A DNA stretch of 38,666 nucleotides from a virus. The stretch's first letter is position 1. Every line of letters begins with the position of its first letter. This document shows positions 34,159-35,048 of this stretch, in pieces. The stretch spans positions 1 through 38,666 of the IMG/VR virus record IMGVR_UViG_3300031754_000011. One strand, given 5' to 3'. Under the pieces are notes generated by a model. It did no database searches. It was not told where the DNA came from and saw only the letters and a list, made by a program, of their open reading frames with translations. The position numbers and the translations under genes are program-made.

Positions 34159-34366
34159 GGCGCCGCCTCCACGGCAGGGGCGGGAGCGGCGCTTGCTGGC
34201 TGAACGGCGCGCAGGCTATCTCCTGGCCCCAGATGGCGCCCCCGACGATGGCGCATCGGCCGTACGGCCCCGTGTCGTAGGCGCCGCGACCGTAGGGGCG
34301 GCGGCAGACGGTGAGGCCTTTCCAGCTCGCGTCGCCCATGCAGGGGTCAGGCGTCCATTGCGTCAT
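34151..34366 (-). CDS. Small Cys/Gly-rich protein between adaptor and fibre genes (71 aa)
   Basis: [20 protein letters not shown] then [18 protein letters not shown] and a basic Pro/Arg tail. The ATG overlaps the adaptor stop (ATGA), and the stop overlaps the next start by 8 bases, supporting translation. No family recognised. Confidence 0.55.
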
Positions 34367-34989
34367 CCAAAGCTCCTATGGCGGGGCATGGTGACGCGCG
34401 AGCCTGAGGCCTTCGCGCCGAGGTGGGCGGCGTTCAGCTTCTGGATCATGTCTTCGGCGAACTGCTTGGAGTTCGCCGCGTTCTGCTCCTCGCCGACGGC
34501 GTGCATGTACGCATGCATCATTGCCGCGCTGAGATAGAGGTTGGGGTATTTGGTGTAGACCCAGCTCGTCTGGGTGTCGGAGAAGGTGGGAACCTCGCCG
34601 TAGTAGGCGAGCTTGTATTCGGTGCCGTCCACCGGATCGGGCGTGCCGCCAAAGTACATCGTCGTGCCGACCAAGGTGTAGTACATCCAGGTGTGGTCAT
34701 CGCGCTGATTGAAGAACTCGTCGCGGGCCTTGTAGCGCGCAACCAGAAAGCCGTCGGCGCCTGCGTCGTTGGCGACCCGCACAAGGTCCATGGCCAGCCA
34801 GTCGCCGGGCAACTGCGCGCAGCGCGAGGTGATGATCCCGTCGTCCATCTGGATCATCAGCGCCACGCGCAGCTCCTGGTTGAGCTTGCTTTCCGCCATG
34901 CGCACGAACGAGGTGACGAGCGCGTCTGGCCAGTCTTGCCGGTTGCTCCATTCCGCGATCTGGGCCTTGAAGTCGGAGAAGTCGCTTAT
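34363..34989 (-). CDS. Head-tail adaptor protein with apparent ATA start
   Basis: 208 residues if started at ATA. Expected N-terminus ISDFSDFKAQIAEWSNRQDW, then VTSFVRMAESKLNQELRVAL, WYYTL-type strands and YLSAAMMHAYMHAVGEEQN; this matches the adaptor (SU10/T7 gp11-like) between head and nozzle. In frame, no ATG/GTG/TTG occurs between an upstream TAG and residue 28, but AAGGAGG (34997-35003) is 7 nt before ATA. A GTG at 34905 would delete the first helix. ATA overlaps the preceding 20-codon ORF as ATAA. Confidence 0.72.
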   Translation of the reverse strand: MSDFSDFKAQIAEWSNRQDWPDALVTSFVRMAESKLNQELRVALMIQMDDGIITSRCAQLPGDWLAMDLVRVANDAGADGFLVARYKARDEFFNQRDDHTWMYYTLVGTTMYFGGTPDPVDGTEYKLAYYGEVPTFSDTQTSWVYTKYPNLYLSAAMMHAYMHAVGEEQNAANSKQFAEDMIQKLNAAHLGAKASGSRVTMPRHRSFG

Positions 34990-35048
34990 GACACGCCCTC
35001 CTTGTTCTTTTTCCTCTTGTTCTGACTATCAGTCAGGTCGAAGCTCAT
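34986..35048 (-). CDS. 20-codon basic ORF coupled to the adaptor
   Basis: Sequence [31 protein letters not shown] lies just before the ATG and the stop TAA overlaps the adaptor's ATA (ATAA). It contains AGGAAAAAG, a possible slippery stretch; a -1 shift there would enter the adaptor frame. May be a coupling leader or the real N-terminus of a frameshifted adaptor. Confidence 0.5.
   Translation of the reverse strand: [20 protein letters not shown]

Follow-up and report, generated by a model that had tools for sequence, protein, structure and literature searches.

The locus described here raises the question of how translation of a phage adaptor gene begins when an in-frame stop codon precedes its conserved N-terminus and no ATG, GTG or TTG lies between the two. 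The gene is located on the minus strand of the window, i.e. the whole stretch of viral DNA that was analyzed (38,666 nucleotides), and the features concerned are as follows.

34363–34989, minus strand: SU10-type adaptor gene of 208 aa with the proposed start ATA (PF24175, phrog_2941; 94 homologous loci aligning from residue 1)
34987–34989, minus strand: proposed start codon ATA of the adaptor (homologous start position; ATA also in contig L022)
34997–35003, minus strand: Shine-Dalgarno (SD) sequence AAGGAGG, inside the last codons of the HNH relic and 7 nt 5' of the ATA (sequence; predicted duplex -11.9 kcal/mol)
34986–35048, minus strand: relic of an HNH-type endonuclease gene, 20 codons, consisting of MSFD and the last 16 codons, with a TAA overlapping the ATA (similarity to the HNH genes of L022, L067 and L009)
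35049–35062, minus strand: purine-rich AGGGGAGAGGGCAG 5' of the relic's ATG (sequence; similar to GGAGGAGGGCAGCTTA, which precedes the adaptor ATG in L012)

An ATA at the first codon of the adaptor

Following a TAG at 35028–35026, the minus strand reads SEQEEKEQGGRV-ISDFSDFKAQIAEW in the frame of the adaptor, and the ISDFSDFKAQIAEW frame extends to a TGA at 34363. The first ATG, GTG or TTG after the TAG is the GTG at 34905, which corresponds to residue 29, and the single near-cognate codon (NTG or ATN) between the TAG and residue 10 is the ATA at 34989–34987. This ATA overlaps, as ATAA, the TAA (34988–34986) of a 20-codon open reading frame (ORF) that occupies 35048–34986 and contains AGGAAAAAG. 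Thus, the reading of the minus strand agrees with an earlier note on this DNA, which had reported the missing canonical start after the TAG, the AAGGAGG 7 nt 5' of the ATA, the ATA overlapping the TAA and the presence of AGGAAAAAG in the small ORF. In a profile search, the adaptor matched PF24175 with 82.9 bits (cut-off 27) over residues 3–190 of 208, and this near full-length match above the curated cut-off identifies it as an SU10-type adaptor; phrog_2941 matches as well.

The duplex between AAGGAGG (35003–34997) and the anti-SD sequence has a predicted energy of -11.9 kcal/mol, a value that 86 of 6000 stretches taken at random from the window also reach (1.4%), and it is approximately the fifth strongest among 95 adaptor starts, the median of which is -6.4. 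The window thus has a near-cognate codon at the homologous start position together with an SD at proper spacing, and the adaptor would most likely be translated by fMet initiation at AUA. A search for an mRNA hairpin over the SD gave a fold no better than shuffled sequences in the window (z -0.08), and the same was seen in the related loci L067, L168 and L009. We also considered an unusual initiator tRNA encoded by the phage, and this idea was rejected: a single tRNA gene was found in the record, a tRNA-Arg (anticodon gcg; window 6316–6393).

Codon 1 in adaptor homologues

The earlier note had proposed that homologues be aligned at the start position. A set of 94 non-redundant homologous loci was collected by searches of viral contigs, and all of them align from the ATA-encoded residue or the adjoining one. 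At exactly this position, 88 of the 94 loci have ATG (66 loci), GTG (12) or TTG (10). Four others have a non-start aligned codon (ACG twice, GGC and TCC) because of an offset in the alignment, an ATG being located a few codons further upstream, and the last two have ATA (L022) and ATT (L067). Given this alignment from residue 1, with a canonical start at that residue in 88 loci, the position of the adaptor start is not in doubt.

The non-canonical codons were linked to an HNH element, which is described below. ATA or ATT at codon 1 was found in none of the 90 homologues without the element and in two of the four linked to it; Fisher's test on these 94 homology-search loci (the window and L168 being left out) gave p=0.0014, which should be taken as a guide rather than as an exact probability because the loci are related, and the element-linked loci are few, six in all. 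When the viral collection was scanned for ATA, ATT or ATC at codon 1 of the adaptor, only L022, L067, L168 and L166 were obtained, three of which carry the HNH gene. L166 (10189–10260), which is devoid of the element, has CTG-ATC at codon 1 after GGGGAGG. As its frame is open far upstream and a CTG precedes the ATC, the start of L166 is uncertain, but the locus indicates that near-cognate starts may also occur apart from the HNH element.

Searches of bacterial genomes gave no confirmed relatives of the adaptor or of the HNH gene. The best adaptors among named phages are 36% identical, and no DNA-level relative of window positions 20000–38666 was found among named phages.

The 20-codon ORF is a relic of an HNH-type gene

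The 3' part of the 20-codon ORF is identical in 15 of 16 residues to the C-terminus of an HNH gene in L022, an independent viral contig (E=5e-6), and the two sequences match at 54 of 59 nt in a comparison that runs through the start of the adaptor. The L022 ORF, NSAFVFMKRRIWAGEV..., has the 3' end of the relic as its own C-terminus and is interrupted by the end of the contig. At its other end, the relic begins with MSFD, which resembles the N-termini MTFD and VTFD of the HNH proteins of L067 and L009. These sequence similarities indicate that the ORF is an internally deleted relic of an HNH-type endonuclease gene, of which about four 5' codons and 16 3' codons are left. The earlier note was right about the ORF and its overlap with the ATA and missed that it is an HNH remnant. 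No intact HNH gene is present in the window; only the relic remains, and the window therefore holds a scar and is not itself a member of the set of HNH insertions. By analogy with the start capture described below for L009, L067 and L168, the purine-rich AGGGGAGAGGGCAG in front of the relic is probably the original ribosome binding site of the adaptor.

A probable second relic was noticed in L003 (1785–1854), where ATGAGCTTCGACC..., a stop in frame and an HNH-like tail precede an adaptor with a normal ATG. It shares the MSFD start with the window and has a different tail.

HNH-type genes occupy the adaptor start in relatives

Directly upstream of the adaptor, an HNH gene is found in L009 (161 aa), L067 (162 aa), L168 and L022, where the copy is cut by the contig end. 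The adaptors behind it start with TTG (L009), ATA (L022), ATT (L067) and ATT (L168), and those linked to a relic with ATA (window) and ATG (L003). A pattern scan for the HNH tail that was blind to the start codon recovered exactly L009, L022, L067 and L168, all at adaptor starts. At all of the TTG, ATA and ATT loci, the last codons of the endonuclease contain a purine-rich SD (GGGAGG, AAGGAGG, AGGGGG or AGGGAGG).

To locate the 5' border of the insertion, we took as reference the 40 nt that adjoin the adaptor start codon on its 5' side in the element-free loci L043, L079 and L099. The 40 nt 5' of the HNH start codon matched this flank at 34 (L009), 35 (L067) and 33 (L168) of 40 positions, as compared with a median of 11–14 for all loci. 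Occupied (L009, L067, L168) and empty (L043, L079, L099) alleles of one site are thus both found, and the flank matches show that the HNH start codon of the three occupied loci is the former start codon of the adaptor. At the 5' junction of the window, the best ungapped match to the empty-site flank was 20 of 40, and it is by analogy with L009, L067 and L168 that we infer start-codon capture in the window itself.

The assignment of the family is based on several comparisons. Its matches to phrog_144 (E=0.001–0.011) and to phrog_1035 and phrog_7091 (HNH and endonuclease VII families) are weak; in tblastn searches it showed 51–52% identity over approximately 65 C-terminal residues to phage genes annotated as HNH endonucleases. 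The HNH family of the intact relatives had no Pfam HNH match, and its profile matched none of the solved structures. Nuclease and homing activity of the element are putative.

Related genes were also observed in other settings. More distant HNH relatives (34–36% identity) lie elsewhere in related phages (L011:1769–2242, L117:1067–1435 and L146:90–467), and the gene downstream of the L011 copy apparently has an ordinary ATG. A second HNH family (phrog_374-like) is found on the opposite strand, head to head with the adaptor, in L016, L044, L045, L071 and L094, where the ATG codons of the two genes overlap in the palindrome CATG. The adaptor start is thus apparently a hot spot at which HNH genes of two kinds occur.

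The ATA travels with the element tail

The adaptor proteins of the window and L022 are 61% identical, and both genes have ATA at codon 1. Around the ATA the two loci are identical over 32 nt (AAGAACAAGGAGGGCGTGTCATAAGCGACTTC), whereas the adaptor bodies share 379 of 612 nt; the closest adaptor body to that of the window is found in L004 (87.6% identity). The contrast between the identical patch and the diverged bodies indicates that the ATA belongs with the tail of the element, and that the shared patch is a mosaic piece and not a sign of close kinship between the phages.

Proposed origin of the ATA start

We propose, with a probability of about 0.8, that a homing-endonuclease-like HNH insertion captured the adaptor's start codon and left the adaptor with a start supplied by the element at AUA, AUU or TTG. 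The insertion point of the HNH-type gene would coincide exactly with the adaptor's start codon, which would thereby have passed to the reading frame of the insert; this would explain the odd start. The adaptor would now be initiated from the 3' end of the insert by means of the strong SD that the final endonuclease codons contain and the triplet at codon 1, i.e. ATA in the window and L022, ATT in L067 and L168, and TTG in L009. In the window, the endonuclease would later have lost its middle, giving rise to the 20-codon ORF ending in ATAA, while the ATA start persisted. As stop and start overlap in ATAA both in the window and in L022, ribosomes ending on the UAA may restart at the AUA, and such coupling probably helps initiation there. 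In Staphylococcus aureus, starts at AUA and AUU that follow a strong SD yield approximately 10–30% of the expression obtained with AUG (PMC13009471). The persistence of ATA speaks against the proposal, as a single base change in L022 would give ATG while turning the HNH stop from TAA into TGA, which is still a stop.

A more far-reaching version of this proposal is tentative and, in our judgment, unlikely to hold in full: the elements would form a class that targets the start codon, captures it and carries a replacement SD with AUA or AUU, the weak start being kept by selection. The weak start would be favored either because it protects the site against cleavage or because it couples the amount of adaptor to translation of the upstream ORF; after decay of the element it could stay behind as a scar, the window being an example.

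Alternative explanations

The best surviving alternative, although an improbable one, is that the loss of ATG was itself selected, either since ATA or ATT spares the inserted allele from cutting by the endonuclease or since it keeps adaptor output low. ATA or ATT is present at four of the six element loci although one base change would restore ATG. On the other hand, the relic-bearing L003 has ATG and L009 has TTG, and the loci are few.

The earlier note had offered a -1 shift at AAAAAG as an alternative to the ATA start. A programmed frameshift of this kind, with a start at the ATG of the 20-codon ORF, a slip at AGG-AAA-AAG and an N-terminally extended adaptor as the product, would be in keeping with the ATG and purine-rich leader of the small ORF and with the -1 frame, which is open from the slip run into the adaptor (EKEQGGRV). 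It is nevertheless very improbable in light of the relatives: (i) in L022, which also has ATA, the A-run is replaced by CGGAAGAAGAAC and the -1 frame stays open over no more than nine codons, (ii) the frame of the adaptor relative to the HNH gene is -1 in the window, L022 and L067 and +1 in L009 and L168, and (iii) in L067 the HNH stop precedes the adaptor start. Moreover, a frameshift would leave the SD at 7-nt spacing to codon 1 without a role. Initiation at the ATA, the other option of the earlier note, is supported, and it gains strength from the ATA in the independent contig L022 and from ATT in two more.

The ATA of the window comes from a single metagenomic consensus and is one base away from ATG, and it might thus reflect a sequencing or assembly error, or else a dead allele. 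We consider this equally improbable. ATA recurs in L022 in spite of the divergence of the two adaptors, and ATT is found at the same codon in two further contigs. As the L022 ATA lies within the shared patch, a private sequencing error is very unlikely, and so is the prospect of raw reads revealing a normal start in the window. A dead allele is difficult to reconcile with an adaptor frame that is intact over 208 codons and that differs from L003 in codons 2–28 by eight synonymous and no non-synonymous changes.

Removal of the insert from RNA or DNA, by an intron-like process or by excision, would restore ATG-AGC-GAC, and in each intact case the HNH-captured codon joined to codon 2 does give a normal start. 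Nevertheless, no Rfam match, group I and II introns included, was obtained at E<=0.1 in the window, L067, L009 or L022, the insert is essentially all HNH coding sequence, and in the window it amounts to just 59 nt, so that we regard removal, too, as having very little likelihood.

Least probable of all is a start at the GTG at 34905, the first canonical start in the adaptor frame, since it would drop a conserved N-terminus with the invariant residues D3, N16, R17, D19, L24, S27 and F28, and since the first canonical codon is itself not conserved (residue 29 in the window versus 25, 23 and 25 in the related ATA/ATT loci).

Significance and comparison with known systems

Genes very rarely start with ATA or ATT, and such starts escape standard gene callers; with ATG, GTG and TTG as the only options, the adaptor would be called with 180 aa instead of 208. 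The window phage and at least three relatives make up a small natural series in which phage structural genes of diverged lineages begin with ATA or ATT, and a selfish gene taking over the start codon is a plausible cause. The case illustrates how a structural gene may survive an insertion at its first codon, and it makes two questions testable, namely how efficient AUA is when a perfect SD precedes it and a stop codon overlaps it, and why there was no simple return to ATG. Among the open-licence papers that our searches brought up, we saw no case in which the start codon itself was captured and a near-cognate start left behind.

The nearest parallels are homing endonuclease insertions that split phage genes, such as MobE in nrdA of Aeromonas phage Aeh1 and MobA in gene 60 of T4 (PMC2988022). 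In these phages, a functional gene is broken up by a free-standing gene for an HNH homing endonuclease, and its downstream part must be translated separately (PMC2988022); the putative HNH endonuclease gene at the adaptor would have the same effect. In the adaptor, by contrast, the break is at the start codon, which the endonuclease would take for itself, leaving the downstream gene with ATA or ATT; with the break at this place, the adaptor protein stays whole.

Hidden HNH insertions of the ShiLan type in phage methylase genes (PMC11855218) are similar in that the HNH insertion is compact, has a stop codon at the insertion boundary and is read in a frame other than that of the host gene. They differ in position, as the insertion is not at the gene start, and the parts of that account available to us describe no replacement start codon (PMC11855218).

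AUA and AUU starts are known from bacterial genes, i.e. infC, ccpN, citZ and cvfC1 of S. aureus and pcnB of Escherichia coli (PMC13009471). They resemble the adaptor start in being near-cognate and, in the conserved S. aureus cases, in having an extended Shine-Dalgarno sequence (PMC13009471). Those are cellular genes in which the codon limits expression (PMC13009471), whereas the present case involves a mobile gene at a phage structural gene: the window adaptor is a near full-length SU10-type protein (PF24175, phrog_2941), yet its gene starts with ATA instead of ATG, GTG or TTG.
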